Shown: positions 1 to 30,145 of the stretch, in pieces | Layout of the letters: each line of letters starts with the position of its first letter | How positions within the stretch are numbered: the stretch's first letter is position 1 | DNA from: Limisphaerales bacterium | GTDB taxonomy: Bacteria; Verrucomicrobiota; Verrucomicrobiia; Limisphaerales; UBA11358 | DNA: 56,279 nucleotides | Assembly (NCBI GenBank): GCA_003134375.1 | Contig: PLAY01000158.1 | Span: 1-56,279, forward strand | Direction: 5' to 3' | Notes under the pieces: generated by a model | Told to the model about the DNA's origin: nothing | Databases searched by the model: none | What the model saw: only the letters and a program-made list of their open reading frames with translations | Program-made: the position numbers and the translations under genes

Positions 1-264
1 AACAGTCCACGCCGGTCGTGGGCGAGAAACCAAATGGGAAATCCCAGGTTAATACCCTTTCCCGGTGAAATCAGTGCAAATATAGAGGCAGGGTCGCCTC
101 GGCGAGGCGACCGGACGTATGTGGCCATGCGTCCCTGCCTTAATTTGGCAAGGAATACGTCGGTGACGTGTTTGTTTGTGCGGACGGCTGGGCCAGCCGT
201 CCCTACCTGATTTGCAAAAGACTGCTTGCAACGAAATAACGGCATCTATGATTTCGTGGCGATC

Positions 265-1815: not shown

Positions 1816-1924
1816 TTAAGTGGTTGAGGGTTGAGGGTTGAGGGTTGAAAGTAGTTAAGCCGGATCCATGCAGAAGATTTTTAATGCAAAGACGCCAAGG
1901 GGCAAAGACGCAAGGGTTGAGTAG

Positions 1925-2056
1925 TTGAGGGTAGGGTCGCCTCGCCGAGGCGACCGGACGCGCGGGCCGCGCGTCCCTACCTGGTTTTTGAGGGTAGGGG
2001 CGCCTCGCCGAGGCGACCGGACGCATGGGGCCATGCGTCCCTACCTTAATTTGGCG
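1925..2056. repeat. Multi-hairpin repeat cluster bounded by GTAGGG/CCCTAC (A: GTCGCCTCGCCGAGGCGAC; B: GGACGCATGGGGCCATGCGTCC and variants)
   Basis: Perfect palindromes read directly in the sequence; same motifs recur at 86-210, 3050-3410, 6470-6530 and 6790-6845. Confidence 0.85.
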
Positions 2057-2078
2057 CGCGTCCCTGCCTGATAAAGGC

Positions 2079-2108
2079 AAAACAAGAGCCGCTCCGAAGA
2101 GCGGCTCC
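2079..2108 (-). terminator. Rho-independent terminator of the PEP-CTERM gene
   Basis: GAGCCGCTCTTCGGAGCGGCTC stem followed by a T-rich tract on the minus strand, just downstream of the stop codon. Confidence 0.75.
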
Positions 2109-2139
2109 TGTGAGATAACTAAATCAACCAAACCTGCGA

Positions 2140-2726
2140 TCAGGCCTGTTTGCGACGGAACGCCAAGAGCGACAGACCGCCCAAAATGCCCAACGCCAGC
2201 GTCGTGGGTTCAGGGATGATAGCCATAATTATATCACCAGGCATGGCGGTGAAGCCCCCTGGGATCTCTAGTCCAGTCGCGATTGCTGATGCCGGCTCAG
2301 TCCAAATCAGTGAGCCATTGAGAGAGGTGTCATAAGTGCCACCAGAATAGGGGCCGGAAGCAACCCAAGCCAGAATGTCAAAGGTGACTGGACCTCCAGT
2401 ATATCCGGTAAGCGTTACATTTGGGCCGATAAACCAGCCTGTGATATTATCACCAATACCATTGTCAGGCTGACTCCAAGTAGCACTTATCGCAGTGACG
2501 CTGGACGGAATGAGCGTAAACCCGCTTGTAACCCCGCTACATTAGCCCAGCCAAGCTCAACATCCACATTGGCGCCAACTTGGGTGCCCTGCAAGGCGCA
2601 AGGTCCATAAACCACAGCATAAAACGGAGTGGCATTGTAATTTGAGAAGAAGATATATCCGTCACCACAGAACGCAGTCATGCTGGCGGTGACTCCAAGA
2701 ATTGCCAGTACCAATGATTTTTTCAT
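2140..2726 (-). pseudogene. PEP-CTERM sorting domain protein, frameshifted
   Basis: N-terminal part MKKSLVLAILGVTASMTAFC...VELGWANVAG in one frame, C-terminal part GFTLIPSSVTAIS...IPEPTTLALGILGGLSLLAFRRKQA in another; frames change near 2515-2535. Paralog of the intact gene at 3479-4075. Confidence 0.75.
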
Positions 2727-3049
2727 GATGGATTATCTCCTGATTTTATCTTGTTCACTTTTCACAGGTTGATTTAACCCAAAATGGAATTGGGTTGGCC
2801 GGCAACGGCCTGCCGTACTGACATGAATTTTACACTTTTTGAAAAAGGAATGGAAGAAAAAAAGTAATGGATCATTTTCATTGGGCGCTTGCCGCACACT
2901 GTCCCCTGAAGTAAGCGGGCGTTTCGTTTGGAGTTCCGTGTTAACGCGGCAAAGGGTGGCGAATGCTCCGAGCCGCCTGAAGGCGGAACTCCAAACGGGG
3001 GCAATGCGTGACGACAGAAAACGGGCGGGCGGGAACATTGCGCTGGGAA

Positions 3050-3410
3050 TATCGGACGGACGGCTCGGCGAGCCGTCCCTACCTGGTTTTGAGGGTAGGG
3101 TCGCCTCGCCGAGGCGACCGGACGCATGAGGCCATGCGTCCCTACCTTAATTTGGCCGCGCGTCCCTACCTGATTTGTGCGGACGGCTGGGCCAGCCGTC
3201 CCTACCTAGTTTTGGTTTTGGTAGGATCGCCTCGCCGAGGCGACCGGACGCATGGGGCCATGCGTCCCTACCTGATTTGTGCGGACGGCTGGGCCAGCCA
3301 TCCCTACCTGGTTTTGGGGGTAGGGTCGCCTCGCCGAGGCGACCGGACGCATGGGGCCATGCGTCCCTACCTGATTTGTGCGGACGGCTCGGCGAGCCGT
3401 CCCTACCTGA
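3050..3410. repeat. Array of alternating hairpins, about three ~100-125 bp composite units
   Basis: Repeated order: GTCGCCTCGCCGAGGCGAC, GGACGCATGGGGCCATGCGTCC, GGACGGCTGGGCCAGCCGTCC, joined by 'CTACCTGATTTGTGC' or 'CTACCTGGTTTT' linkers. Confidence 0.9.
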
Positions 3411-6152: not shown

Positions 6153-6432
6153 TTTCCCGCGCGGGTCCGCACCCAATTTCTTGCCGGAGGGGCGAGTTAC
6201 ACGAGTCCCCATTTCCAGAGGCGTTCGATGAGTCAGTGGCTTGTGCAACCCGCCCCGCCGATATTTTTTTCGCGGGGTCCGGTTTTTGCGGCCATTCCGT
6301 TGCGCTGGCCGGTCGGGAGCCGAAAGCCGAAAGCCGCCGGCGGGACGCCAGCGCTCCCAGGAACTTGTTTATCCGTGTCATCCGCGTAATCCGCGGTTCT
6401 TATTTCGGTTTCCGGGTTTAGTTATCTCACAG

Positions 6433-6461
6433 GAGCCGCTTTTCGGAGCGGCTCTTTTTTT
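6433..6461 (+). terminator. Orphan terminator-type hairpin (PEP-CTERM 3'-module copy)
   Basis: GAGCCGCTTTTCGGAGCGGCTCTTTTTTT; no PEP-CTERM gene upstream. Confidence 0.7.
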
Positions 6462-6752
6462 ACTTTATCAGGTAGGGACGCATGGCCACATGCGTCCGGT
6501 CGCCTCGGCGAGGCGACCCTACCCTCAACTACTCAACCCTTGCGTCTTTGCCCCTTGGCGTCTTTGCGTTAATTTCATCTCCCCCGGCTGAATAGATCCA
6601 GTTTGGGAGCGCCGGCCTGTCGCGTTGGCCGGTCGGGAGCCGAAAGCCGAAAGCCGCCGGCGGGACGCCAGCGCTCCCAGGAACTTGTTTATCCGTGCAA
6701 TCCGCGCAATCCGCGGTTCTTATTTCGGTTTCCGGGTTTGGTTATCTCACAG

Positions 6753-6781
6753 GAGCCGCTTTTCGGAGCGGCTCTTTTTTT
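6753..6781 (+). terminator. Second orphan terminator-type hairpin
   Basis: Same sequence as 6433-6461, in the second duplication copy. Confidence 0.7.
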
Positions 6782-7186
6782 ACTTTATCAGGTAGGGACG
6801 CATGGCCACATGCGTCCGGTCGCCTCGGCGAGGCGACCCTACCCTCAACTACTCAACCCTTGCGTCTTTGCCCCTTGGCGTCTTTGCGTTAATTTCATCT
6901 CCCCCGGTTGAATAGATCCAGTTTGGGAGCGCCCGGGTTCAAACCACAAATTCGTCCGGGGAAATCTCGCCCGGCCGGCTCTTTTCCAACCTAAACTGAT
7001 TTCCCCAAAAATGGCAAACAAATGGCAATAATAGTCAAGCCCGCACCGGGGTTCCCCATTAACCTATAGTCAGGAAGATGTGCAGCATGTGCCAGATGCC
7101 AACGGCGCGGGCAGCGCGGACCAGCCGTAACCCCGGCTGGACCGGCCTGCTTGATTGATTTTTTTTGCCAACCCTGAAATACGTTT

Positions 7187-7627
7187 ATGAACCAACGAGC
7201 TTTGAAAACGTACGTTTTTTATTGCTCCAACAATCTGGCCGCCGACGCGTTTGCCGGCCTGGGCCGCGGCCGGGAGGGCGACACCATCAAGACCATCAGC
7301 CTGCCCTGTTCCGGGAAGGTGGATGTTCCGTATTTGATCAAGGCGTTTGAAACCGGCGCGGACGGCGTGGCGATTGTGACCTGCCCCCGGAACGAGTGCC
7401 GCCATTTCGAGGGCAACCTGCGGGCGCACAAACGCGCCGAGGCCGTGGAATCGCTGCTGGAGGAAATTGGCATGGAGGCGGGCCGGATGGCGGTATTTGA
7501 GTGCGGGCAACAGGGCGTTGAACGGGTCCTTGGCGAAATCAAGCAGTTCATTGAACGGGTGAGGAACCTGCCCGCCGCACCCGCCCGCAGCGACGCCGCA
7601 AACAAACAGGAGTGTACGGTTGCATGA
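7187..7627 (+). CDS. Hydrogenase iron-sulfur (MvhD/FlpD-like) subunit, first copy
   Basis: 'PCSGKVDVPYLIKAFETGADGVAIVTCPRNECRHFEGNLRAHKR' is typical of the MvhD/FrhD family. Confidence 0.75.
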   Translation: MNQRALKTYVFYCSNNLAADAFAGLGRGREGDTIKTISLPCSGKVDVPYLIKAFETGADGVAIVTCPRNECRHFEGNLRAHKRAEAVESLLEEIGMEAGRMAVFECGQQGVERVLGEIKQFIERVRNLPAAPARSDAANKQECTVA

Positions 7628-8529
7628 AACCAGACAGCAAACTCGCAAAAAAAATTGAGTCGGGAGATTTTATCGTCACCGCCGAGTGCGCGCCGGGCGC
7701 CACCGCGACCGGGGCCGCCACCGAAGCGGCCTTGAAATTCTTCAACGGCAAACTGGCGGCCGTCAACTTTCCCGACAACTCACACGGCGTGGCGATCTCA
7801 TCGGTGGCCGCGGCGGTGGCGGCCATAAAACTGGGCGCCGAACCGATCCTCCAGATGGTCACCCGCGACCGGAACCGCATCGCCCTGCAGTCGGATTTGC
7901 TGGGCGCGGCCAGCCTGGGAATCAAGAATCTGCTGTGCATGTCCGGCTATCATCAGATGCTGATCGGTTGTCCGGAATCGGCCAATGTTTTTGACGTGGA
8001 TTCGTCGCAATTTGTGGATCTGGCCACCCGGATGTCTGAAACCGGCGTCCTGGCCGACGGGACAAAATTTGACGGGCAATTTTCGATGCTGGTGGGGGCG
8101 GTGGCGAATCCGTTTCTGAGACCGATGGATCTCAACCTGTTCCGGCTCGGCATAAAAATCGAAGCCGGCGCACGGTTTATTCAGACCCACGCGGTGTTTG
8201 ACCTCGAGGCCTTCACTCAATGGCTCGAGGGCGCCCGCAAGGAGGGTCTCGCCCAAAAGACGGCGATTTTGGCCGGGGTTTTTCCCCTGGGCAGCGCGGC
8301 GGAAGCCGAAAAGCTCCGGGACACGTACGCCGAATTTCGCATTCCGGACAAAATCATTGAACGGCTGAAAAAAGCGGGCGATGACGCGGCGCAGAAAAAG
8401 GAGGGCATCGCCATCTGCGCCGAAACCATCAAGCAGCTCAAGGCGCTCGAGGGATTGCGCGGGATCCACATTCTTTCGGGCGGCAAGGAGGCCTCGGTGC
8501 CGGAGATTCTGGCCGCCGCCGGACTGTAA
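7624..8529 (+). CDS. metF: Methylenetetrahydrofolate reductase-like (MetF)
   Basis: 'IESGDFIVTAECAPGATA', 'NFPDNSHG', 'PILQMVTRDRNRIALQSDLLGAASLGIKNLLCMSG', 'GARFIQTHAVFD': MTHFR TIM-barrel motifs. Confidence 0.8.
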   Translation: MKPDSKLAKKIESGDFIVTAECAPGATATGAATEAALKFFNGKLAAVNFPDNSHGVAISSVAAAVAAIKLGAEPILQMVTRDRNRIALQSDLLGAASLGIKNLLCMSGYHQMLIGCPESANVFDVDSSQFVDLATRMSETGVLADGTKFDGQFSMLVGAVANPFLRPMDLNLFRLGIKIEAGARFIQTHAVFDLEAFTQWLEGARKEGLAQKTAILAGVFPLGSAAEAEKLRDTYAEFRIPDKIIERLKKAGDDAAQKKEGIAICAETIKQLKALEGLRGIHILSGGKEASVPEILAAAGL

Positions 8530-8544
8530 TTACCGGGAGAAATC

Positions 8545-9945
8545 ATGCCGGAAAAATATCACATCCAGACCCAGCCGGTCCCGCCGCGGCGTCCGCGCAT
8601 TGGCAAGCATGGCGTGGTGGACTGGCGCGAAGACTGCGCCCGGTGCCATAACTGCGTCAAAAAAGCCTGCGTCTATGACCGCTACAAACAGGAGGCGGAA
8701 TACATCCGCAATCTCAGCGACGTGGACGCGTTGTTTTTTGAGTGCATGGGTTGTTTTTCCTGCGTGCAGAATTGCACGAAGGGCATTTTGTGCCTGTCCA
8801 TCAATCCCGCCTACGAAAAACTCGGAAACAAATACTGGAAACCCGACATCATCAAAACGACGTGGGTTCAGGCTGAGACCGCGAAAATCCCGGTTTCCGG
8901 CGCGGGCTATCGCGGGCCGTTTTCCGGCCATGGTTTTGATTCCATGTGGACCGACATGTCGGAAATCGTCCGCCCCACCCGCGACGGCATTCATGGCCGC
9001 GAATACATCAGCACGTCGGTTGATATTGGCCGGAAGCCTTCGTACCTGTCGCTGAACGGGACCCAACCGGTTGCCGGCCTGCCGCCGCTGGTTTCGCTGC
9101 CGATGCCGTTGATCATTGATTTGAGTTCGCCGGCGCACACCCTGCCGAAGCTGGACGCGGCGATCGAACAGACCGCCGGCGACACCGGCTTGATCGCCAT
9201 CATGGATTCGAGTTACCGGCCGATGGACGAGGCCAACCTCGAAAACATCGCGTTTTATCTGGGACCGGACAGTCCGCCGGTGCCGGACGCGATGCTGAGA
9301 AAGACCCGGCTGGTGGAAATTGCCGATGGCCCGGCGGTGGCGGAGCGCATCAAGGAAATCAAAAAGATTCATCCGCAAATCGTGGCCGCCATCCGCGTGG
9401 AACTGACTGCGGCGGGCATCGGGCGCGCCATCGAACTGGCCGGACTGGGCGAGGTCGAGGTGATTCACGTCGTGGCCGACGCCAACGGCAACGAGTTGAC
9501 GGCGCAAAAGCCGCGGTTTTTGAAGGACATGCTCCGGCAGATTCACACCACGCTCATCGAGAAGGGCATCCGGGATGAAATCACGCTCATGGCCGGCGGC
9601 GGCATCGCTTTGCCGGAGCACATGGCCAAGGCCATCATCTGCGGCGCCGACCTGATCACCATCAACCTGCCGCTGTTGGTCGCGCTGGAATGTCATCTCT
9701 GCGACAGTTGCCGGCCCGGCACGCCCTGCCCCGCCCGGCTGGAGAAGATTGATTTCAAATACGCCGTGGGCCGGATGACCAATTTGATTGCCGCGTGGCA
9801 CGACCAGTTGATCGAGCTGATGGGCGCCATGGGCATGCGCGAGGCCCGCCGCCTGCGCGGCGACGTCGGCCGCGCCATGTTCTTCGAGAACCTGGAGGAG
9901 GAAACCTTCGGCAAACTTTTCGGCGCCAGAAAGGCAGGGCTATGA
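8545..9945 (+). CDS. Glutamate synthase FMN-domain homolog with N-terminal ferredoxin module (apparently degenerate copy)
   Basis: N-terminal CARCHNCVKKACVY and CMGCFSCVQNC clusters; C-terminal 'LMAGGGIALPEHMAKAIICGADLITINLPLLVALECHLCDSCRPGTPCPARLEKIDFKYAVGRMTNLIAAW' resembles the GltB FMN/3Fe-4S region. Confidence 0.7.
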   Translation: MPEKYHIQTQPVPPRRPRIGKHGVVDWREDCARCHNCVKKACVYDRYKQEAEYIRNLSDVDALFFECMGCFSCVQNCTKGILCLSINPAYEKLGNKYWKPDIIKTTWVQAETAKIPVSGAGYRGPFSGHGFDSMWTDMSEIVRPTRDGIHGREYISTSVDIGRKPSYLSLNGTQPVAGLPPLVSLPMPLIIDLSSPAHTLPKLDAAIEQTAGDTGLIAIMDSSYRPMDEANLENIAFYLGPDSPPVPDAMLRKTRLVEIADGPAVAERIKEIKKIHPQIVAAIRVELTAAGIGRAIELAGLGEVEVIHVVADANGNELTAQKPRFLKDMLRQIHTTLIEKGIRDEITLMAGGGIALPEHMAKAIICGADLITINLPLLVALECHLCDSCRPGTPCPARLEKIDFKYAVGRMTNLIAAWHDQLIELMGAMGMREARRLRGDVGRAMFFENLEEETFGKLFGARKAGL

Positions 9946-11480
9946 ACACGTTGCCTGAAAATACGCTGAAGACGCGCGTGCCGCAGGAGGAAGTGGAACG
10001 GGTGGTCAAACCCGCGCCGTCCCGCTATCGCAACGAGATCGCCAAGTACATCGTCCATCGCAGCCTGGACTGCGAACGCTGCGGCAAGTGCCTGGAGGTT
10101 TGCACCCATGGCGTCCATGTGCGAAAACCCGGGTTTGAATATTTCGGTGAGCCAAATCATCACCTGTGCATCGGACCGGCCTGCGCGAAAAACGGGCATT
10201 ATTGCGTGGCCCAGTGCCCCAAACAGGCGCTGCAAATCCGGGAAAATCCCATGTACCGGGCGCTCGGTGATTGCCGCTGGTCGGCGGATTTGATCCTGGC
10301 GACGTGGAAAATGGCCGAGACCGGCGAGGCGCCCTCTGACGAATACGATTTCAATTATGAGTGCGGCGATTCCGGCGGCGGCTTCGACAAGCTCCGGTTC
10401 AAATTCCCCAAACAGCCGCCGATAAAACTCGACGCGGACCAGATTGACACCAGCATATCGCTGAACAAACGCAAAGATGGCCGGCCCGAAATCAAAATTG
10501 ACGTCCCCTGGTATGGCGGCGGCATGTCGTTCGGGTCGGTCAGCAATGTGACCCAATTGTCCAAGGCCCGCGCGGCCGTGGCGTGGAACACGTTCACCTG
10601 CACCGGCGAAGGCGGATACATGGAACGCATGCGGCCATATGACGACCATATGATTACGCAGGTCGCCACGGGCCTCTTCGGTGTGCGCGAGGAAACCATC
10701 CAGCGGGTGCCGATTGTGGAATTCAAATATGCCCAGGGCGCCAAGCCCGGTCTGGGCGGCCACCTGCTCGGCGATAAAAACACCCCGGCCGTCGCCAGAA
10801 TGCGCGAGACCGTCCTCGGCATTTCGCTGTTTTCACCGTTCCCGTTCCATAGCGTCTATTCCATCGAAGACCACATGAAACACATTGACTGGGTCAAGCA
10901 TGTGAACCGGCGCGCCTTGATTTCAACGAAGGTTTCCACCCCGACGGACGTGGACATGGTCGCCGTGGGCAGCTATTCCGCCGGCACGCACATTGTCCAC
11001 ATTGACGGCGGCTATGGCGGGACCGGCGCGGCGCCGGACATCGCCAAGAAGAACATCGCCATGCCCATCGAATACGCCATCGGCAAGGTGCATAATTTCC
11101 TCACGGATGAAGGCGTCCGCGACAAGATGACGCTCATCGCCAGCGGGGGAATCCGCTCGGCCCACGACATCGCCAAGGCCATCGCCCTGGGCGCGGATGG
11201 CGTGGTCGTCGGAACGGCGGAACTGGTCGCGCTGGGATGCGTGCGGTGCAGCCTGTGCGCGAGCGGACGGGGTTGCCCGCGCGGCATTGCCACCACCGAT
11301 CCCGAGCTTTGCGGGAAAATGGATTTGGACTGGGGCACCCAGCGGCTGGTCAATCTTTACAGCGCCTGGCGCAAGACGCTGGTCGGCATTTTGCAGCGTC
11401 TCGGTCTGCGCAGCGTCGCCGAATTGCGCGGACGCACCGATCTTTTGATGCATTTGGATTACACCAATGACATCCGTTAA
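9942..11480 (+). CDS. Glutamate synthase FMN-binding domain protein with N-terminal ferredoxin module
   Basis: CERCGKCLEVC...; 'WYGGGMSFGSVS', 'GAKPGLGGHLLGDKNTPAVA', 'IHIDGGYGGTGAAP', 'CSLCASGRGCPRGIATTDPEL'. ATG at 9942 overlaps the previous stop. Confidence 0.9.
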   Translation: MNTLPENTLKTRVPQEEVERVVKPAPSRYRNEIAKYIVHRSLDCERCGKCLEVCTHGVHVRKPGFEYFGEPNHHLCIGPACAKNGHYCVAQCPKQALQIRENPMYRALGDCRWSADLILATWKMAETGEAPSDEYDFNYECGDSGGGFDKLRFKFPKQPPIKLDADQIDTSISLNKRKDGRPEIKIDVPWYGGGMSFGSVSNVTQLSKARAAVAWNTFTCTGEGGYMERMRPYDDHMITQVATGLFGVREETIQRVPIVEFKYAQGAKPGLGGHLLGDKNTPAVARMRETVLGISLFSPFPFHSVYSIEDHMKHIDWVKHVNRRALISTKVSTPTDVDMVAVGSYSAGTHIVHIDGGYGGTGAAPDIAKKNIAMPIEYAIGKVHNFLTDEGVRDKMTLIASGGIRSAHDIAKAIALGADGVVVGTAELVALGCVRCSLCASGRGCPRGIATTDPELCGKMDLDWGTQRLVNLYSAWRKTLVGILQRLGLRSVAELRGRTDLLMHLDYTNDIR

Positions 11481-11493
11481 CAAAATCAACAAT

Positions 11494-11625
11494 GGTAGGG
11501 ACATCGCGCTGCGATGTCCCCGCCCGCGCAACAGCGGGCGGAACGAATCGCCCACAATGTGCGGATTCGGCCTATGCATTGCGCCGCTGAACGCAGCGCG
11601 GACGGCGCAGCGCGCCGTCCCTACC
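11494..11625. repeat. 132 bp four-hairpin palindromic element (copy 1)
   Basis: GGTAGGGACATCGCGCTGCGATGTCCC...CCGCCCGCGCAACAGCGGGCGG...GGACGGCGCAGCGCGCCGTCCCTACC; inverted copy at 15814-15945. Confidence 0.9.
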
Positions 11626-11657
11626 AGGTTCTGGAATTTGATGCGCGACAATTTGTC

Positions 11658-14336
11658 ATGAACAGTGAACTGATAAAACGGCTGGCCGGTTCGAGAAAAC
11701 AACTGGCCGAAAGCCTCAACTATAACCCGCTTCTGAAAAAAGAGGCGGAGGAAGGCGGTTGCGGCGTGGTCGGTTTCTGCTGCAGCGAGCCGGTGGCGGG
11801 CCGGCATATTTACGAACCGTCGCGCCAGATGCACAACCGCGGCAACGGCAAGGGCGGCGGCATCGCGGCGGTGGGACTCGTTCCGGAACAGCTCGGCGTC
11901 AGCCGGGAGGTGCTCGACAGCCATTTCCTGCTGCACGTGGCGTTCATTGACACGAAGGTGCGGCCGGAAATCGAGGCGCAATTCATCAAGCCGTTCTTCG
12001 ACATCGCCGCCTCCGCGAAGCTCGACAAGGTTGATGACTGGAAATCCGTGCCGGGCCTGGAAGTGTTGCCGCCGGATGTCTGCCGTTATTTTGTCCGCGT
12101 CAAGCCGCTGGTGCTCGATGAGTTCATCGCGAAGAACCATCTGCAACAACTCGACCGCGACGAGGCGGAGGATGAATTCGTCAACCAGAACAGCTTCAGC
12201 CTCAACCAAAAATACTACGCGTCGCTGGGCGAAAAACGGGCCTTCGTGCTCTCGCATGGCCGGGACATCATGATTCTCAAGGTGGTCGGTTATGCCGAAG
12301 CCATCGTGAAGTATTACAAAATCGAGGAGCTGTGCGCCCACGAATGGATTGCCCACCAGCGCTTTCCCACCAAGGGCCGCGTCTGGCATCCCGGCGGCGC
12401 GCATCCGTTTGCGGCCATTGACATGGCGCTGGTGCATAACGGCGATTTCGCCAATTACCATTCGGTGACCGAATATCTCAAGCAGCGCCATATCTATCCG
12501 CAGTTCCTCACCGACACGGAAGTGTCCGCGCTGTTGTTCGACCTGCTCACCCGCACCTACCATTATCCGCTGGAATACATCATCGAGGCGCTCGCGCCCA
12601 CCACGGAACTGGACTTTGACCGGCTCGATCCGGAGAAGCAGAAGATTTACCGGGCCATCCAGGCCACCCACATCCACGGCTCGCCCGATGGCCCGTGGTT
12701 TTTCATCATCGCCCGCAACCTGGCCCGCCAGAAACAATTCCAGTTGATGGGCATCACCGACACCGCGATGCTCCGGCCCCAGGTGTTTGCCTTCTGCGAT
12801 GGCGAAGTCCAGGTGGGTTTGATTGGCTCGGAAAAACAGGCCATTGACGCCACGCTGTTGAGTCTCTCGAAGGATGACAAACGCATCTGCCCCGTGGCGG
12901 ACCGCTACTGGAACGCGCGCGGCGGCAGTCACAACGACGGCGGAGCGTTCATCTTCAATCTGCAAAAAAATCCGGCCGGCAAAATCCGGATTACCTGCAC
13001 GGACAAATTCGGCAAACCGGTTCCCATGCCGGGAGGGACCGAGGCCTGCGATTTTTCGAAGGGTGGCACAGGCCTCCGGCCTGTACCGTCGGGCGACTCG
13101 CCCGACGGAATGGAACAAATCGTTAATGAAAAACTGGCTGCCGGCAACAGCCTGGCGGCGTTCGAGTGGGTGCGCGACCAGCTTCCGAAATGGACCTACG
13201 ACGAATTCCGCGCAGCGTGCCGGCAGATGGTTGATGCGGCGAAAGATGCCTCCCGGACGGCGATGGCCATCGAGGTCTTTGCGCTGCTCAACGACCGGCG
13301 CTACTCGACCGGCTCCAAGAAACGCAGCCACGTTCTGCATGTCATCCACACGGAGTTGAGCCGGTTGCTCGGCAGCCTCCCCAACATCGGCTCGAAGGAT
13401 GCCGGCAAGAGCGCGTTCCGGCTCATTGATTTCGCGACGCGCGGCAGCCTGCGTCCGCCGCAGGAGAACGAAACCACGCTGGTCATTGACGCCGCGAATT
13501 TTGCGCCGGAAGGCAGCAACTGCGACGCGGAACTGCTGGTGGACGCGTTCATGAAGGGCTGGCGGCATTTCATCAGCTTTAATTGCATTGGCCAGCGTTA
13601 CATCGGCTGCGGCCTCGGCCCGGAAACCGGCGATGTGACCATCGAGGTTTATGGCAGCAGCGGCGATTATCTGGGTTCCGGCATTGATGGGCTGGCCATC
13701 ACGGTGCATGGCAATGCCCAGGACCAGTTGGGCCAGATCACCAAAGAGGGAAAAATGGTCGTCCATGGCGACGTGGGCCAGACATTCATGTACGGCGCCA
13801 AAGGCGGCGTGGTCTATGTGCTCGGCAACGCGGCCGGCCGGCCGCTCATCAATTCCGTCGGCAAACCCCGGGTGGTCATCAATGGCACCTGCCTCGACTT
13901 TCTGGCCGAGTCCTTCATGGCCGGCGACCCAAATCACGGCGGCGGTTTCGTGATCTTGAACGGCGTCAAATTCGATGACGAAGGAAAACTGGTTCCCCTG
14001 CCCGAGCCGTATCCGGGCAGCAATCTGTTCTCGCTGGCTTCGGGCGGCGCGATTTTTGTCCGCGACCCCGGCAAGACCATGGTGGATCAGCAGTTGAACG
14101 GCGGCAAGTTCGCCCGGGTGACCGCCGCGGACTGGGAATTGATCCTGCCGTACCTCGAGGAGAACCAGAGACTTTTCGGAATAACCGTCGGGCAGCTTTT
14201 GACGGTGAACGGCCAGCAGCGCAAACCCGCGCAGGTCTATCGCAAGGTTGTTCCCGGCAATATCAAGGCCATTGTCACGGAGGACACCGACGATGTCGCA
14301 GCCGAGGAGCTGGTTGGAGATCTGGCCGCGAAATAG
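11658..14336 (+). CDS. Class-II glutamine amidotransferase domain fused to a GltB C-terminal GXGXG domain
   Basis: 'EEGGCGVVGFC' nucleophile Cys, 'AHQRFPTKGRVWHPGGAHPFAAIDMALVHNGDFANY', then GXGXG beta-helix 'GSSGDYLGSGIDGLAITVHGNAQDQLGQ...GAKGGVVYVLGNAAGRPL'. Confidence 0.88.
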   Translation: MNSELIKRLAGSRKQLAESLNYNPLLKKEAEEGGCGVVGFCCSEPVAGRHIYEPSRQMHNRGNGKGGGIAAVGLVPEQLGVSREVLDSHFLLHVAFIDTKVRPEIEAQFIKPFFDIAASAKLDKVDDWKSVPGLEVLPPDVCRYFVRVKPLVLDEFIAKNHLQQLDRDEAEDEFVNQNSFSLNQKYYASLGEKRAFVLSHGRDIMILKVVGYAEAIVKYYKIEELCAHEWIAHQRFPTKGRVWHPGGAHPFAAIDMALVHNGDFANYHSVTEYLKQRHIYPQFLTDTEVSALLFDLLTRTYHYPLEYIIEALAPTTELDFDRLDPEKQKIYRAIQATHIHGSPDGPWFFIIARNLARQKQFQLMGITDTAMLRPQVFAFCDGEVQVGLIGSEKQAIDATLLSLSKDDKRICPVADRYWNARGGSHNDGGAFIFNLQKNPAGKIRITCTDKFGKPVPMPGGTEACDFSKGGTGLRPVPSGDSPDGMEQIVNEKLAAGNSLAAFEWVRDQLPKWTYDEFRAACRQMVDAAKDASRTAMAIEVFALLNDRRYSTGSKKRSHVLHVIHTELSRLLGSLPNIGSKDAGKSAFRLIDFATRGSLRPPQENETTLVIDAANFAPEGSNCDAELLVDAFMKGWRHFISFNCIGQRYIGCGLGPETGDVTIEVYGSSGDYLGSGIDGLAITVHGNAQDQLGQITKEGKMVVHGDVGQTFMYGAKGGVVYVLGNAAGRPLINSVGKPRVVINGTCLDFLAESFMAGDPNHGGGFVILNGVKFDDEGKLVPLPEPYPGSNLFSLASGGAIFVRDPGKTMVDQQLNGGKFARVTAADWELILPYLEENQRLFGITVGQLLTVNGQQRKPAQVYRKVVPGNIKAIVTEDTDDVAAEELVGDLAAK
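13062..13108. repeat. Double-hairpin repeat inside the amidotransferase/GXGXG gene
   Basis: GGTGGCACAGGCCTCCGGCCTGTACCGTCGGGCGACTCGCCCGACGG, translated in frame as GGTGLRPVPSGDSPDG. Confidence 0.75.
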
Positions 14337-14350
14337 CGGAAGAGAATCAC

Positions 14351-14917
14351 GTGATAACCATCAAAAATAAAAAGAACGGACCGGGCCTGAAGAGCGCCGT
14401 CGAAGAGATTTCCGGCGTGGATATCAGCGTCTGCTTCCAATGCAAGAAATGCTCCAGCGGTTGTCCGGTGGCCAAACTCACCAAGTCCCGCCCTTCGGAA
14501 ATCATGCGGCAACTGCATCTGGGCGCCGGCAATGAACTGCTTGAAAACGATCTCGTCTGGATGTGCGCCTCGTGCGAAACCTGTTCCGCCCGCTGCCCGA
14601 TGGGCATTGATGTGGCGGCGGTCATTGACGCGTTGCGCCGGCTGGCCCTGGAACGAGGGGCCTCGAAGCAAAAAGGCAATGTGTCGCTGTTCAACCGCGC
14701 CTTTTTGAAAACAGTCGAGACCTTTGGCCGCAGTTACGAGATCGGGATGATCACCGCCTACAAAATCGGCACGATGAAATTGATGAACGACACGGAAAAA
14801 TTCCCGGCCATGTTGAAGAAGGGAAAAATCGCCTTGCTGCCGCCCCGGGGCGGCGACCGGAAGACCGTGAAACGCATTTTCAGGAAATTTAAAGAAAGCA
14901 AAGGGGCCCAAGCATGA
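14351..14917 (+). CDS. hdrC: Heterodisulfide reductase subunit C-like protein
   Basis: Two 4Fe-4S motifs CFQCKKCSSGCP and CASCETCSARCP; precedes hdrB. GTG start. Confidence 0.88.
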   Translation: MITIKNKKNGPGLKSAVEEISGVDISVCFQCKKCSSGCPVAKLTKSRPSEIMRQLHLGAGNELLENDLVWMCASCETCSARCPMGIDVAAVIDALRRLALERGASKQKGNVSLFNRAFLKTVETFGRSYEIGMITAYKIGTMKLMNDTEKFPAMLKKGKIALLPPRGGDRKTVKRIFRKFKESKGAQA

Positions 14918-15786
14918 GATACGCCTATTATCCCGGATGCTCGGCTGAATCCACGGCCCGTGACATGCACCAGTCCACGCTGGCCGTTGCCCGGGCACTG
15001 GGAATTGATCTGGTTGAACCCAAAGGCTGGACCTGCTGCGGCGCCACCGCCGGACACCAGACCGACCGGCTGCTGGCCGTGTCCCTGCCCGCCGCCAACC
15101 TGACCAAGGTCCAGGACCTGAAGCTGGACATGATGGTTAATTGCGCCGCCTGCTACAACCGGATGAAGGTGGCCAACCACGAAATTTCGTCCCATCCCAC
15201 CGTCCGCAAGGGCGTCCGCGAAGCGTTGGACCGGGATTATGACGGTTCGGTCAAGGTGCGGCACCTGCTTGAAGTGCTCCTGGAAGATGTCGGCCTGCCG
15301 GCCATCAAGCGGGCGGTCAAACGTCCGTTGAACGGTCTCAAGGTGGCCTGCTACTACGGCTGCCTGCTGGTCCGTCCGCCCAAGATTTTAAAATTTGATG
15401 ACCCGGAAAATCCAACGTCGCTCGACCGGCTGGTCACCGCCATGGGCGGCACGAGCCTGGAATGGCCGTCCAAGGTCGAATGTTGCGGCGGCGGCCTGTC
15501 GCTGTCGCGGACGGACGTGGTGGTCGAGCTTACGGGGTCAATCATTGACATGGCGGCCAGCGTGGGCGCGGATTGCATCGCCGTCAGTTGCCCCATGTGC
15601 CAGGTCAATCTCGATTTGCGGCAGCAGGACATCAACAAACAGACCGGCAAGAATTATCAAATTCCGATTGTCTATATCACCCAGTTGCTCGGCCTTTGCC
15701 TCGGCATCGGTCCCGGCGAACTCGGGTTCAACAAGCTGATGGTCCCGGCGGCCAACGTTTTGGAGAAGGTAAATGAACGCGCATAA
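14914..15786 (+). CDS. hdrB: Heterodisulfide reductase subunit B-like protein
   Basis: Two CCG-type motifs: 'GWTCCGATAGHQTD...NCAACYNRM' and 'VECCGGGLSLSRTD...SCPMCQVNL'. Confidence 0.9.
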   Translation: MRYAYYPGCSAESTARDMHQSTLAVARALGIDLVEPKGWTCCGATAGHQTDRLLAVSLPAANLTKVQDLKLDMMVNCAACYNRMKVANHEISSHPTVRKGVREALDRDYDGSVKVRHLLEVLLEDVGLPAIKRAVKRPLNGLKVACYYGCLLVRPPKILKFDDPENPTSLDRLVTAMGGTSLEWPSKVECCGGGLSLSRTDVVVELTGSIIDMAASVGADCIAVSCPMCQVNLDLRQQDINKQTGKNYQIPIVYITQLLGLCLGIGPGELGFNKLMVPAANVLEKVNERA

Positions 15787-15813
15787 AACAATCGTCATCG
15801 CCCTCCAGCGACT

Positions 15814-15945
15814 GGTAGGGACGGCGCGCTGCGCTGTCCGCGCCGCGTTCAGCGGCGCAACGCACCAGATGAGTCCGTGCCCCGTGCGCGAATCGTTCCG
15901 CCCGCTGTTGCGCGGGCGGGGACATCGCAGCGCGATGTCCCTACC
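15814..15945. repeat. 132 bp four-hairpin palindromic element (copy 2, inverted relative to 11494-11625)
   Basis: Same length; outer ~50 and ~40 bp nearly identical to the reverse complement of copy 1, middle diverged. Confidence 0.9.
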
Positions 15946-15996
15946 CCGGCAAAACAGCCGACCGGCAGGTTGGCCCTACCATTTCACCAAACAGCC

Positions 15997-18900
15997 ATGA
16001 GTAAATCCGACGACAAAAAAATTGGCGCGGTGCTGGTGCAAGGCGGCGGCATTGCCGGCGTCCAGGCATCCTTGGATCTGGCCAACAGCGGCTTCAAGGT
16101 TTATCTCGTCGAGCGCGACGCCGCCATCGGCGGCATGATGGCGCACCTGGACAAGACGTTTCCGACCGGCGATTGCGCCACCTGCATCGTCTCGCCCAAG
16201 CTCGTCGAATGCGCGCGCAACCTGAACATCGAAATCATGACCCTTTCGGAAGTGACCGGTCTGGAAGGCGAACCCGGTCATTTCAAAGCGACGGTCAAAC
16301 GGCATCCGCGCTATGTCATCGAGGACAAATGCACCGGTTGCAGCGAGTGTACGCAGGTCTGTCCCGTGGACATCCCGGACGAGTTCAATCGCTGCCTGGG
16401 CACCCGCAAGGGCATCGCCAAACTCTACGCCCAGGCCACCCCGAACATTTTCGGCATTCTCAAAAACGGCCACTCGCCCTGCAAAATGACGTGCCCGGCC
16501 CGGGTCAACGTCCAGGGCTACGTCCAACTCATCAAGCAAAAGGAATATCTCAAGGCGGTCGAACTCGTCCGCCAGCGCAATCCCCTTTCGGCCATCTGCG
16601 GCCGCGTCTGCACGCATCCCTGCGAATCCGAATGCATGCGGGGCAAGGCCGACGACCCCATCGCCATACGGCTGCTGAAACGGTTCGCCTCGGACCAGGA
16701 AATGGAAATGCTCGCGGCGGGCAAGCTCACCCTGCCGGAGGAAAAAACTCCCGCGGCGGACGCCAAAAAAGTGGCCATCATCGGCGGCGGCCCGGCAGGT
16801 CTCACCGCGGCCAACGACCTTGCCGATGCCGGTTTTGCCGTCACGGTTTACGAAGCGATGAACGCCGCGGGCGGCATGTTGCGCTGGGGCATTCCCGGAT
16901 ATCGGCTGCCCAAGAAGGTGCTCGACCACGAAATCGAAATCATCCGCCGCAAGGGCGTCACGTTCGTTTATAACTGCCGCATTGGCCGGGAGGTCACCAT
17001 CGAGACGCTCCAGAAGGTTTATGCCGCGGTCTTCATTTCCGCCGGCGCCCAGAAGAGCCGCAACCTCCGGATTGAAGGCGAGGACGCCATCGGCGTGCTG
17101 CACGGCATTGAATTTCTCCGGGAAGCCGGTTCGGCCAACAAACCCGCGGTGAAAGACCGCGTGCTGGTCATCGGCGGCGGCAATGTGGCGGTGGATGTGG
17201 CCCGGACCGCCGTGCGCCTCGGCGCCAAACATGTCGAGATGATTTCCCTCGAACAGCGGAAGGAAATGCCCGCTTACAAGGAGGAAATCGAAGCGACCCT
17301 CGCCGAAAACATCAAGATTCGCAACGGCTGGGGCCCCAAACGCATCCTCTACAACGGCTCCGTCACCGGCATCGAGTTGAAACGTTGCACCCGGGTTTTC
17401 GACGCCCAGAAACGGTTCAATCCGGCTTTCGACGAAAAAGATCTGGCCACGATCGAGGCCGACCAGATCATCGTCGCCATCGGCCAGGCGGTGGATGAGG
17501 AACTGGTCAGCCACATCAAGGTCCAAAACGAACGGGGCTGTTTCAAGGCCGACAAGGTGACCGGCCAGACTTCCGTGCCCGGCATTTTCGCGGGCGGCGA
17601 TAATGCCACCGGTCCCGCGTCCGTGATTGACGCCGTGGCCGCCGGCAAACGCGTTGCCGAATCCATCGAACGATTTTTGAAGGGCAAGGATTTGTTGGGC
17701 AATCGTTTCGAGGATTCCCTTCGCCCGATTCCACAGGCGTTCCTGCCCACGCTCGACAAGCTGGTGAAAAAGTCCCGGCCTCATGCGAAGGAACTGGCCC
17801 CGGCCAGCCGGCTGGGAAATTTCGACGAGGTCGAAATCGGTCTCACCGAGGAACAGGCGCTTGCCGAAGCCGAACGCTGCCTGAATTGCGCCCTGTGCTC
17901 GGAATGCAACCGGTGCGTCGAAACCTGCAAGCAGCACGCCATTGACCATGCCATGCGCGAGCAGACGGTCACACTCGAGGTGGGCTCGGTCATCCTGACC
18001 CCGGGCTTCAAGGAGTTCGATGCCCGGCGCAAAGGTGAATTCGGTTATGGCCGCTATGACAATGTTGTCACCAGCGTCCAGTTTGAACGGATGCTTTCCG
18101 CCGCCGGCCCGTTCGAAGGCCATGTCATCCGCCTGTCCGATGGCCGCGAGGCCAAACGCATCGCCTGGATCCAATGCGTCGGCTCGCGCGATTCGTCGTG
18201 CGGCCATGAATATTGCTCCTCCATCTGCTGCATGATGGCCACCAAACAGGCCATGGTTGCCGGCGACCACGTCGGCGAACTGGACGCGACGATTTTCTAC
18301 ATGGACATCCGCGCGCACGGCAAGGATTTCGACCAGTATTACGAGCGCGCCCGGGCCAAGGAGAACATCCATTACGTCAAGAGCATCCCGTCGCGGATTG
18401 TCCAGTTGCCCGGCAGCAAGGACTTGCGCGTTTTGTTCCTCGACGAGAACAGCCAGCTGGCGCAAAAGGAATTTGACCTGATTGTTTTGTCCGTGGGCAT
18501 GGAACCGCCGGGCAGCATGGCGGGCCTGGCCGCCTGCCTGGACATCAAGCTCAACGAATTTGGTTTCTGCGACACCGACCGGCTCCTGCCGCTGTGTACC
18601 TCCCGGCCCGGCGTGTTCGTCGGCGGCGCGGCGCAGGAACCCAAGGACATTCCCGAAACCGTCACCCAGGCCAGCGCCGCGGCGTCCATGGCGATGGAAC
18701 TGCTCGCGCCGGCGCGCAATTCGCTCGTCACCAAAAAAACTTATCCCACCGAGCACGACGTCACCGACGAGGAACCGCGCCTCGGCGTGTTCGTCTGCCA
18801 TTGCGGCATGAACATCGGGTCGGTCGTGGACGTCGAGGCGGTCGTCAAGCGCGTCGAGCACGAGCGCAACGTGGTGCTGGCGACCCACACGATGTTCACC

Positions 18901-20505
18901 TGTTCGGACACGAGTCTGTCGAACATCAAGGAAATGATCCATCAACACCGGCTCAATCGCATCGTCGTGGCGTCCTGCACGCCGCGCACGCACGAGCCGC
19001 TGTTCCGCGAGACTTTGCGCGAGGCCGGGCTGAACCCGAACCTCTTCGACATGGCCAACATCCGCGACCAGTGTTCCTGGGTGCATTCGGCCGCGCCGGA
19101 AGCGGCCACCGAAAAAGCGGTTGAACTCGTCAAGATGTCCATCGCCCGGGCGCGCACGCTCTGGCCGCTCGAAGGCGGCACGCTCGCGGTGGACCAGACC
19201 GGCATCGTCATCGGCGGCGGCTTGAGCGGCATGACCGCCGCGCTCGCGCTCGCCAACCAGGGATTCAGCGTCCATCTGGTCGAGCAAATCGGTCGTCTGG
19301 GCGGGACCCTGCACGATATTCATAACACTTTCGAGCACGACGACATCGCCGCCTTCACCCGCGGCCTCATTGACCAGGTCCAGAAACATTCCAAGATCAA
19401 GACCTACCTCGAAGCCGAAATCACCAGCATCAAGGGCCACATCGGCAAGTTCCACCTGACGCTCGCCAAGGGCGGCCCGAGCTTTGAAATTACCGGTGGC
19501 GCCATCGTCGTGGCCACGGGCGCGCAACCGGCCAAAACCGCCGAATTCTTATACGGCAAATCCGACCGCGTCCTGACCCAGGTCGAACTGGAAAAACGGT
19601 TGCACGACAAAGCCTGGCAGGCCAAGGGACAAAACATCGTCATGATCCAGTGCGTCGGCTCGCGCAACGAAAAGCATCCGTATTGCAGCCGCATTTGCTG
19701 CTCGATGGCCGTCAAAAACGCGCTGGCCGTCAAGAAACTGGACCCGAGCGCCAGCGTCTATGTGCTTTACCGCGACGTCCGGACCTACGGCTTCCGGGAA
19801 GTTTACTATCAGCAGGCGCGCGAAGCCGGGGTGGTGTTCATCCGTTACACGCCGGAAGCGCCGCCGCAGGTGGCCGACAACAACGGCCTGGTCGTCACGC
19901 TCAAAAGCCCCGACTTCCCCGAACCGCTCGCCATCGAGGCCGACAACGTCGTGCTCAGCACCGGCGTGGAAGTGGATTTGAAGAACAACAAGCGCATCTC
20001 GGACATGCTCAAGGTGCCGCTCAACGCCGACGGTTTCTACGTGGAAGCCCACATGAAACTGCGGCCCGTGGATTTCACCACCGAAGGCATCTTCCTGTGC
20101 GGCCTGGCCCATTCGCCGAAGTTCATTGACGAAAACATTTCGCAGGCGCGCGCCGCCGCCGCGCGCGCGGCCACCGTGCTGTCCAAGACCCAGCTCGATG
20201 TCAGCGCCCAGGTTTCCTACGTGGACCAGCAGAAGTGCATTTCCTGCATGACCTGCGTCACGGTCTGTCCGTACACCGCGCCCTACTGCAACAAGGACGG
20301 CAAGGGACAGATCGAGGCTGCCAAGTGCATGGGCTGCGGGATTTGCGCCGCCGAATGTCCGGCCCGCGCCATCCAGTTGCATCATTTCGAGACCGACCAG
20401 TTCGAAGTGATGATCAAACAACTGTTCGCCGGCGAAAACGTGGAGAACGGGGCAAACGGTGCGCCCGAGGCCTATCCGGTCAGGAAGTTGACGGAAAAAG
20501 TTTAG
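15997..20505 (+). CDS. hdrA: Giant HdrA: HdrA N-terminus, embedded GltD/NfnB-like FAD/NAD(P) oxidoreductase, then further HdrA modules with terminal 2x[4Fe-4S]
   Basis: '[56 protein letters not shown]' (HdrA); '[20 protein letters not shown]...[48 protein letters not shown]' (GltD-like); '[20 protein letters not shown]' and '[12 protein letters not shown]...[13 protein letters not shown]'. Start at ATG 15997. Confidence 0.9.
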   Translation: [1502 protein letters not shown]

Positions 20506-20526
20506 CATGATCGCCAAACAACATTT

Positions 20527-20640
20527 ATTTTCCAACGCAGAGGCGCGGAGAACGCGGAGTTTCGCAGAGTTTAATTTCCTCCGCGGCCCTCTGCGTCCTT
20601 TGCGTCTCTGCGTTAAGGCTCCCACACAATTTGCATAACC
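20527..20640. repeat. GCAGAG-type imperfect palindromic repeat
   Basis: 'AACGCAGAGGCGCGGAGAACGCGGAG...CTCTGCGTCCTTTGCGTCTCTGCGTTAA'; related copies at 30167-30250 and 30718-30872. Confidence 0.8.
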
Positions 20641-20641
20641 C

Positions 20642-21100
20642 ATGAAACCCCAGGTATTTGAACCCAAGATCGTGGCCTTTTGCTGCCACTACTGCGCCTA
20701 TTCGTCGGCGGATTTGGCGGGGTCCATGCGCATCCAGTATCCGCCCAACGTCCGCATCATCCGCACCCCCTGCACGGGCCGGCTGGAGACCGAATACTTC
20801 ATGAAGGCGTTCGAGAACGGCGCGGACGGCGTGCTGGTGGCCGGCTGTCTCGAAGGCGGCTGCCATTTCGTGGAAGGCAACCTCTGCGCCAAACGCCGGG
20901 TCACCTACACCCGCGACATGCTGGCCGAAGTCGGCCTGGAAAAGGAACGCCTCCGCATGGTCAACATTTCCGCCGCCATGGCGCGGCCTTTGGCGGACAC
21001 CATCACCGACATGGTGGAAACCGTCCGCAACCTCGGGCCAAACCCGCTCAAATCGAAAAATAATTTAACTAATTTAACCAAACTGGAGACCCGCTCATGA
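20642..21100 (+). CDS. mvhD: Hydrogenase iron-sulfur (MvhD/FlpD-like) subunit, second copy
   Basis: 'IVAFCCHYCAYSSADLAGSMRIQYPPNVRIIRTPCTGRLETEYFMKAFENGADGVLVAGCLEGGCHFVEGN' canonical MvhD cysteine pattern. Confidence 0.88.
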   Translation: MKPQVFEPKIVAFCCHYCAYSSADLAGSMRIQYPPNVRIIRTPCTGRLETEYFMKAFENGADGVLVAGCLEGGCHFVEGNLCAKRRVTYTRDMLAEVGLEKERLRMVNISAAMARPLADTITDMVETVRNLGPNPLKSKNNLTNLTKLETRS

Positions 21101-21765
21101 TTGTCGCCCAACGAAAAAACATACCCGAACTGCTGTCCATCGTGGAGAAGCACCGGAAGGTGCTCCTGCTCGGCTGCGGCACCTGCGTGACCGTCTGCCT
21201 CGCCGGCGGCCAGCGCGAAGTCAGCATCATCGCCTCCGCCCTCCGCATGGTGGCCAAATTGAAGAACCGCGCCCTCGAGGTCGAGGAACTCACCATCGAA
21301 CGCCAGTGCGACAACGTCTTCCTCGAACAGGCCGCCGAGGCGGTCAAGAACACCGACGCCGTGCTGTCGCTCGGCTGCGGCGCGGGGGTGCAGGCCTTGG
21401 CGGAACGATTCAACGGCAAACCGGTTTATGCCGGACTCGACACCGCGTTCATCGGCATTTTGGAGGAACGGGGCGTCTGGGCGGAAAAATGCGCCGCCTG
21501 CGGCCAGTGCGTGCTGCATCTCTACGGCGGAATTTGTCCCATCACCCGGTGCGCCAAGAAAATGATGAACGGCCCCTGTAGCGGCTCCCGCGAAGACCGG
21601 TGCGAAGTCAACCCCGACCGACCCTGCGCCTGGCAATTGATTTTCAAGCGCCTCAAAGAAATCGGCCAATTGGACCGGCTAAAAGAAATCAAGCCCCCCA
21701 AAAACTGGCGCCCAAGCCAGTCAGGAGGTTGTCGCACAATTGTTCGTGAGGATCACAGGGTTTGA
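21097..21765 (+). CDS. metV: Methylenetetrahydrofolate reductase C-terminal/MetV-like protein
   Basis: 'VLLLGCGTCVTVCLAGGQREV', 'GCGAGVQALAERF', 'CAACGQCVLHLYGGICPITRCAKKMMNGPCSGSREDRCEV' matches MetV-type cysteine-rich proteins. Confidence 0.85.
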   Translation: MIVAQRKNIPELLSIVEKHRKVLLLGCGTCVTVCLAGGQREVSIIASALRMVAKLKNRALEVEELTIERQCDNVFLEQAAEAVKNTDAVLSLGCGAGVQALAERFNGKPVYAGLDTAFIGILEERGVWAEKCAACGQCVLHLYGGICPITRCAKKMMNGPCSGSREDRCEVNPDRPCAWQLIFKRLKEIGQLDRLKEIKPPKNWRPSQSGGCRTIVREDHRV

Positions 21766-28654: not shown

Positions 28655-30145
28655 TTACGGCAAGTCCGTGTTTCCCATTAAATACCGGTCGCACTCCCTC
28701 GCGGCTCCCCTGCCCTCGTTGAAGGCCCATACGACGAGGCTCTGGCCGCGACGGCAGTCGCCGCAGGCAAACACATTCTTGAGGTTCGTTGCGTATTTCT
28801 CGAACTCAGCCTTTACATTCGTGCGCGGGTCGCGTTCGAGCTTGAGCGCGGCGAGCAACGGTTGCTCCGGTCCAAGAAAGCCCATCGCCAGCAGCACCAG
28901 TTGCGCGGGCAAAACCTTTTCCGTGCCGGGCACATTCTTCGGAATGAACTGGCCCTTGTCGTTTTTCTCCCATTTCACCTGCACGGTGTGGACGGCTTTC
29001 ACCTGGTCCCGCATTGCAGGATCGCCTTCAAACTTCGTCGCGGTGGTGAGATAAACGCGCGGGTCGGCGCCGAATTTCGCGGCGGCTTCCTCCTGGCCGT
29101 AGTCCATTTTGTAAACCTTGGGCCATTCGGGCCACGGGTTGTCCATTGCGCGCTCCTCCGGCGGCTTGGGCAAAATCTCCACCTGTACCAGGCTTGCGCA
29201 GCCATGACGCATTGAAGTACCGACGCAATCCGTCCCGGTGTCGCCGCCGCCGATGACGATGACGTCCTTGCCGGCGGCGGAAATGAAACTGCCGTTCTTT
29301 TTGCCGTCGAGAACGCTCTTCGTGTTCGCGGTGAGAAATTCCATCGCAAAGTGAACGCCCTTGAGCTGGCGGCCTTCAATCGGCAAATCGCGCGGCTTGG
29401 TGGCGCCGGTCGCGAGGACCACGGCGTCGAATTCCTTGAGCAGTTTTTCCGCCGGATAATTGCCGCCCACGTCGGTGTTGCAGACGAACCGGATGCCTTC
29501 GGCTTCGAGCTGTTTGATACGGCGCATCACGACCTGTTCCTTGTCGAGCTTCATGTTGGGGATGCCATACATCAGCAAGCCACCCGGTCGGTCGGCGCGC
29601 TCGAAAACGGTGACGGTGTGGCCGGCCTTGTTCAATTGCGCGGCGGCGCAGAGTCCAGCCGGGCCGGAGCCGACCACGGCCACCTTTTTGCCGGTGCGCT
29701 GTCCGGGCGACACGGCGGTGACCCAGCCTTCGTCCCAGCCGCGGTCAATGATGGCGCACTCGATGCTTTTGATGGTGACGGGCGGGGCGTTGATGCCGAG
29801 CACGCACGAGCCTTCGCACGGCGCGGGGCAGACGCGGCCGGTGAATTCGGGGAAATTATTCGTCTTGTGCAGCCGTTCGAGCGCCTCCTTCCACAGGCCG
29901 CGATAGATGAGGTCGTTCCATTCCGGAATGAGGTTGTGAATGGGGCAGCCGCTGGCCATGCCGCTGAGGAGCGTACCGGTGTGGCAGAAGGGAGTGCCGC
30001 AGTCCATACAGCGCGCGCCCTGTTTGCGCAGGCCGGCCTCCGGCAGGTGCAGGTGAAATTCCTTCCAGTCCGCAATGCGCCCCGCCGCCGGGCGATCCGC
30101 CGGCACCTCGCGCAAATACTCGATGAATCCTGTGGGTTTGCCCAT
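28655..30145 (-). CDS. gltD: Glutamate synthase small subunit
   Basis: '[20 protein letters not shown]...', '[14 protein letters not shown]', '[48 protein letters not shown]'. Confidence 0.95.

Follow-up and report, generated by a model that had tools for sequence, protein, structure and literature searches.

A predicted split glutamate synthase encoded together with HdrABC, MvhD and a MetF-like protein in a conserved ten-gene cluster

We analysed a 56,279-nucleotide stretch of DNA from a Limisphaerales bacterium of the phylum Verrucomicrobiota (contig PLAY01000158.1, positions 1 to 56,279, assembly GCA_003134375.1), here called the window. It makes up one contig of a draft genome that totals 4.16 Mb and has 92.8% completeness. 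An earlier note had described ten consecutive same-strand genes in it, combining heterodisulfide reductase (Hdr) subunits, methylenetetrahydrofolate reductase (MTHFR) homologues and glutamate synthase domains, and Pfam and NCBIfam searches recovered all of them on the plus strand, separated by short gaps, between positions 7187 and 21765. The cluster starts with mvhD1 (7187-7627), encoding an MvhD/FlpD-type [2Fe-2S] protein (Pfam FlpD, 94 bits), and a metF-like gene (7612-8529), encoding an MTHFR-fold protein (Pfam MTHFR, 93 bits) whose true start is probably the ATG at 7624. It continues with gltB2a (8545-9945), which carries Fer4 and a degenerate GltB-type barrel matched by Pfam Glu_synthase in its C-terminal part only, gltB2b (9942-11480), with Fer4 and an intact flavin mononucleotide (FMN)/2-oxoglutarate synthase barrel (Glu_synthase, 301 bits), and a GATase-GXGXG fusion gene (11658-14336; Pfam GXGXG, 53 bits; GATase_6, 25.5 bits, slightly below the Pfam cut-off of 27 bits). 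These are followed by hdrC (14351-14917; Pfam Fer4_17/Fer4_8), hdrB (14914-15786; two Pfam CCG domains), hdrA with a GltD-like NAD(P)H-oxidoreductase insert (15997-20505; NCBIfam HdrA2, 958 bits; PRK12771, 560 bits), the MvhD-type gene mvhD2, which adjoins hdrA and metV (20642-21100; FlpD, 166 bits), and metV itself, encoding the iron-sulfur partner of MetF (21097-21765; Pfam DUF5981, the MTHFR C-terminal/MetV domain, 128 bits). NCBIfam matches backed the HdrA2, HdrB and HdrC identities. The 4-nt ATGA overlaps that had been noticed were readable at four junctions, gltB2a/gltB2b (9942), hdrC/hdrB (14914), mvhD2/metV (21097) and mvhD1/metF (7624), the last of which holds only if the inner ATG is the metF start. 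No Rfam elements were found around the cluster, and promoter and terminator scans of the cluster scored no better than shuffles.

Scanning about 85,000 species genomes for the GATase-GXGXG gene, we obtained at least 522 relatives, of which the 80 closest were taken for study. The class II glutaminase residues (N-terminal-type Cys, Arg, Asn-Gly and Asp) were present in the fusion protein, and the Cys, Arg, Asn, Gly and Asp were invariant in 80-82 of 82 homologues where the residue was covered. Its Cys35 is preceded by a 34-residue leader, as read from the DNA start, which resembles canonical GltB propeptides in length, and the GXGXG domain of glutamate synthase was identified by Pfam. Alignment of gltB2b to 2VDC/1EA0 showed the motifs GMS.G, GEGG and K.AQGAKPG.GG together with the iron-sulfur Cys; the FMN/2-oxoglutarate motif residues that were checked, along with four cluster Cys, were retained in 65/65 homologues, and the protein aligned with residues 855-1170 of Azospirillum brasilense GltB, which form the synthase domain. 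Both GltB paralogues had been taken for FMN-domain proteins. Both genes are present, but the first (8545-9945) lacks GMSFG, GEGG, KYAQGAKPG and the next loop, the elements that hold FMN and substrate in gltB2b, and because of this loss just gltB2b looks catalytic. Each of the two bears its own ferredoxin domain. In gltB2a the eight Fer4 Cys were found in 59/59 homologues and the four C-terminal Cys were mostly retained, and its predicted model gave weak matches to FMN-type barrels (template modelling score, TM, to the query at most 0.42 among the matches listed). We consider gltB2a to be probably a non-catalytic iron-sulfur electron-transfer partner of gltB2b. At one locus (L017), gltB2a and gltB2b are joined in a single 988-residue open reading frame (ORF), and aligning this fusion with the single chains set gltB2a on the wrong half. 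The domain matches and invariant residues bear out the proposal that every glutamate synthase domain is present on split chains, with GltD inside HdrA, and the GATase-GXGXG protein, gltB2b and the HdrA insert form a residue-intact split glutamate synthase of predicted activity. Repetitive extragenic palindrome (REP)-like GC-rich palindromes were seen in the gap that separates gltB2b from the GATase gene (11481-11657). The GATase-GXGXG gene itself contains a palindromic stretch resembling them, in frame, at 13065-13110 (GGTGLRPVPSGDSPDG), which is absent from aligned relatives.

The GltD-like insert (PRK12771/PRK12814) occupies approximately residues 197-703 of the HdrA ORF (NCBIfam). A GltD domain inside HdrA is the mark of type III HdrA/HdrL, and the PRK12771, Fer4_20 and Pyr_redox_2 matches, found also in full-length homologues, place the window protein in this class. 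The flavin adenine dinucleotide (FAD), NAD(P) and nearly all iron-sulfur motif residues of HdrA were invariant among 20 full-length homologues, eight Cys of HdrC were found in 33/33 homologues, and the HdrB cluster Cys were conserved in 27/27, the first Cys of domain 2 excepted. With minor exceptions, the HdrA FAD and iron-sulfur sites, the HdrB CCG clusters and the HdrC clusters were all in place. HdrB and HdrA are naturally fused in L015. HdrA has no GltD insert in L084 or in L031, where its place is filled by NuoF (Complex1_51K) together with a Fer2_4 (2Fe-2S) domain; in L077, NuoF lies upstream of an HdrA cut by the contig end. An NAD(P)H-oxidising module beside HdrA is thus the recurring feature, while the point at which NAD(P)H enters seems to be interchangeable among loci. 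The four Cys of mvhD1 were invariant in 32/32 homologues. The mvhD2 Cys were also conserved among homologues, with TGA at the Cys18 position in three relatives, all Desulfobacteraceae (L026:18742-19212, L027:18811-19281 and L056:13766-14227), where the in-frame codon falls at a conserved Cys (CCHY-TGA-AY); the TGA-bearing mvhD2 probably encodes a selenocysteine MvhD.

The metF-like gene had been listed as an MTHFR homologue, and this assignment holds for the fold and fails for the pterin site. Its AlphaFold model (predicted local distance difference test, pLDDT, 90.7) had only MTHFR structures as best PDB matches, with TM up to 0.80, indicating that the modelled fold is still that of MTHFR. 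The catalytic Glu25 (Glu28 in the reference set of MTHFR residues) is kept, and Tyr113 and His193 replace the pterin-binding Asp120 and Gln183 (E. coli numbering). In E. coli MTHFR both residues form hydrogen bonds to the pterin; the D120N enzyme retains 0.3% of kcat and its Km is more than 40-fold higher, and for Q183 variants the increase in Km exceeds 250-fold (PMC11094777). Asp120 and/or Gln183 were lost in 26/27 Hdr-linked MetF proteins versus 0/48 other MetFs (the 48 including two repeat retrievals), and the substitutes varied (Y, H, F, T, A, R, E). On a MetF tree built without the pterin columns, the 26 degenerate copies formed one branch with support 89, while the single Hdr-linked MetF with intact residues (L082) lay elsewhere. 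Because the degenerate copies form a single branch, the most fitting reading is that the loss happened once, in an ancestor, and that the replacements diversified afterwards. MetV retains 10 Cys in 41/41 homologues. A canonical MetF with all three residues is encoded elsewhere in the window genome (G000:C21), which rules out the MetF-like protein as the only MTHFR of the organism. Carbon monoxide dehydrogenase/acetyl-CoA synthase was not detected in the window genome, which gave no CdhC match, and only 25/41 module-carrying genomes had such a match; on these grounds the cluster was rejected as a Wood-Ljungdahl marker for the window. With the pterin residues lost and a canonical MetF elsewhere, coupling to one-carbon metabolism is unlikely in the Hdr-linked variant; it is possible in an Hdr-less variant, in which MetFV with intact residues adjoins the gltB genes.

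Within the genus of the window, the GATase-GXGXG gene was found in one further sampled genome only (91% identity), and within the phylum at 56-59% identity in 3 other genomes of 388. The common order, mvhD-metF-gltB2a-gltB2b-GAT/GXGXG-hdrC-hdrB-hdrA-mvhD-metV, was kept by many of the closest relatives (for example L020, L022, L023, L037, L039-L042, L052, L063, L073 and L085) and spans Verrucomicrobiota, Planctomycetota, Chloroflexota, Thermodesulfobacteriota, Ignavibacteriota and Myxococcota. The synteny check that the earlier note had proposed was thereby run, and the genes stay beside hdr/metFV across phyla. The ten-gene arrangement is conserved among anaerobes belonging to at least seven phyla and is not accidental; chance or misannotation was ruled out by the synteny across phyla and the invariant residues. 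Besides the ten genes, no further widespread partner was found among these relatives. The gene order is rotated in Desulfobacteraceae (L026, L027, L047 and L056), and other loci differ in content: MetV-MetF plus the gltB module make up the Hdr-less variant (L061, L065-L067, L071, L090, L095-L097), the gltB module occurs with HdrA and without metF in L077 and L084, and it occurs with a FAD_binding_4/iron-sulfur (GlcD-like) oxidase in L079, L093 and L094. Where enough upstream DNA was available, gltB2a was present in 57/58 loci, and metF or hdrA was present in 20/22 loci whose flanking DNA was long in both directions. In most loci mvhD adjoins gltB2a, even where hdr and metF are absent. In addition, carA lies near the gltB module in seven loci (L059, L068, L079, L080, L093, L094 and L096), directly downstream in L059, L068, L080 and L096 and followed by carB in L068, a proximity that we counted for the glutamate synthase reading. 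In a FastTree phylogeny of the GATase-GXGXG protein, the window fell within a 30-row clade (support 100) covering seven phyla, as taken from the record names, and all members with enough flanking DNA adjoin hdr genes. The spread of this clade across seven phyla suggests that the cluster was transferred horizontally as one unit.

We then considered the other glutamate enzymes of the carrier genomes. Canonical GltB (30875-35578) and GltD (28655-30145) are encoded on the minus strand of the window contig, about 7-14 kb downstream of the split system. Another GltB-like enzyme was found in 15/15 sampled window-clade genomes versus 11/26 outside the clade (Fisher p 1.4e-4, the genomes being related), so the argument that the split system is the sole glutamate synthase was rejected for the window, and in its clade the split enzyme would be an extra one. 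In 15/41 module-carrying genomes, all outside the window clade, no further protein with a Glu_synthase domain scored above 60 bits, and six of these (G463, G470, G474-G477) also had no glutamate dehydrogenase-family match. In those six the module is the sole recognisable ammonia-to-glutamate route, with the limit that draft genomes may miss genes. A second glutamate-synthase-like set was seen at L072:12760-17897 and also in L040, L042 and others, at some loci downstream of the module; it consists of a protein of about 370 residues that matched no Pfam family, one with Fer4 and Glu_synthase domains, and one in which GXGXG is fused to GltD.

Elsewhere in the window, two 300-bp direct repeats, 98% alike, lie immediately upstream of the cluster (6299-6918), with palindromic repeats that also occur at 50-3408. 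Two successive plus-strand ORFs (384 and 381 aa) at 37457-40030, whose repeated DNA is 71-73% identical, are likely a tandem gene duplication.

Several known systems resemble parts of the cluster. The bacterial NADPH glutamate synthase GltBD (Azospirillum; PDB 2VDC/1EA0/6S6S) shares the N-terminal-Cys glutaminase, the FMN barrel with its Cys cluster, GXGXG and the GltD-like module, whereas the present cluster is split over three chains, has an extra degenerate iron-sulfur paralogue, places the GltD part within HdrA, and has additional ferredoxin domains as well as a fourth Cys in the gltB2b cluster. The archaeal-type split glutamate synthase, made of separate GATase, Fer4-FMN and GXGXG proteins, shares the split chains and the ferredoxin domain on the FMN chain, and L019 seems to hold such a set at 28-35% identity; here, however, GATase is fused to GXGXG, and a second degenerate FMN paralogue and MvhD and Hdr partners are present. 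As the earlier note had stated, a MetFV-HdrABC-MvhD gene set with a 6S-type MTHFR is published for Moorella (PMC5736913, PMC8515935). Likened by published gene content, it has MetF, MetV, HdrA, HdrB, HdrC and MvhD together, but in our cluster MetF lacks the pterin residues, HdrA has a GltD insert, and gltB-like genes and a second MvhD are added. HdrL, type III HdrA and HdrA9-11, with a GltD/NfnB insert, have the same HdrA architecture (PMC2702500, PMC12054007, PMC9012536), although the insert carries GxGxxA here and GxGxxG in archaeal type III HdrA (PMC12054007), and the glutamate synthase module present here is a difference from HdrL/type III HdrA as described in those papers. A full-text search of open-licence papers found no description of gltB-like genes joined with HdrA-GltD or MetFV-HdrABC-MvhD. 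The kinds of component are already known; what appears to be new is their union, in which an Hdr module and a folate-site-less MetF accompany a split glutamate synthase.

Based on these results, we hold it to be somewhat probable that the cluster encodes a split iron-sulfur glutamate synthase fed through an HdrA-MvhD module rather than a free GltD, with a non-folate MetF-like/MetV pair. The GATase-GXGXG protein would free ammonia from glutamine, and the FMN of gltB2b would reduce 2-iminoglutarate to glutamate. The GltD insert within HdrA, with its motifs retained, would take electrons from NAD(P)H, and the gene association points to an electron route from HdrA to MvhD and on to gltB2a/gltB2b, with gltB2a and mvhD1, whose cluster residues are kept, acting as non-catalytic iron-sulfur relays. 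HdrA may bifurcate, sending one electron to glutamate synthesis while the second passes to either ferredoxin or an HdrBC acceptor. The potentials are about -320 mV for NADH, about -200 mV for methylene-/methyl-tetrahydrofolate and about -130 mV for 2-oxoglutarate/glutamate, so glutamate formation would be a suitable high-potential branch. The fuller version, in which HdrA splits NAD(P)H electrons, 2-oxoglutarate amination drives ferredoxin reduction with recovery of energy, and the MetF paralogue is now structural or electron-transferring, is tentative and in our view rather doubtful. In the Hdr-linked clade the MetF-like/MetV pair would be a remnant or adaptor and no longer a methylene-tetrahydrofolate reductase. 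Several points weigh against this picture. Complex formation, bifurcation and activity rest throughout on sequence-based evidence; some relatives have mvhD-gltB-GAT with hdr and metF not nearby; the MetF degeneration is one clade and no series of independent events; and the catalytic Glu is retained in the Hdr-linked MetF copies, two excepted. Moreover, all 15 sampled window-clade genomes carry another GltB-like enzyme, so that in them the cluster has a role on top of that enzyme, which could be a different one. Such extra-enzyme status fits a specialised, possibly energy-saving role, yet it weakens direct functional inference.

Alternatively, the ten genes could encode two separate enzymes that are co-transcribed under common regulation and exchange no electrons directly: an Hdr-MetFV-derived redox complex, and an independent split glutamate synthase that relies on ferredoxin or MvhD. 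The parts are indeed separable, as seen in the gltB module without hdr/metF, with MetFV only, or with the GlcD-like oxidase, and the ferredoxin domains of gltB2a and gltB2b fit an independent enzyme. Nevertheless, MvhD docks to Hdr in known complexes and accompanies gltB2a even without hdr/metF, the genes are tightly packed with four 4-nt overlaps, and gene content is constant across the phyla of one clade, so that we regard two enzymes as unlikely. The earlier note had proposed an Hdr-MTHFR-glutamate synthase super-complex, in which methylene-/methyl-tetrahydrofolate trades electrons with glutamate synthesis through HdrA. Its link of glutamate synthase to HdrABC/MvhD agrees with our reading, and MetF and MetV belong to the same conserved cluster, residue-intact MetFV adjoins gltB genes in the Hdr-less variant, and the Moorella complex is a real NADH-dependent MTHFR, as cited in PMC8515935. 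However, the folate link was not sustained for the Hdr-linked variant: many different residues have taken the place of the pterin-binding Asp, and often also of the Gln, the corresponding E. coli variants D120N and Q183 are strongly impaired (PMC11094777), and the genome of the window encodes a canonical MetF elsewhere, with acetyl-CoA synthase not detected. We therefore find tetrahydrofolate improbable as an electron source in the window variant, and the super-complex with it. The GltB-like companion in every sampled clade genome would also suit Hdr-linked gltB-like subunits that have switched reaction, either to glutamate oxidation feeding Hdr or to amination of another substrate, but the checked GATase and FMN/2-oxoglutarate motifs are invariant inside and outside the clade, making such a switch very improbable.

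Glutamate synthase is a major route of nitrogen into biomass, and, to our knowledge, the redox drop available from NAD(P)H or from ferredoxin is spent in full by the known glutamate synthases. For metagenome annotation, metF beside hdrABC alone is no proof of a bifurcating MTHFR or a Wood-Ljungdahl pathway. If our reading is true, HdrL/type III HdrA would gain a partner, and a widespread Hdr-wired glutamate synthase would mean that anaerobes may conserve energy while assimilating nitrogen.

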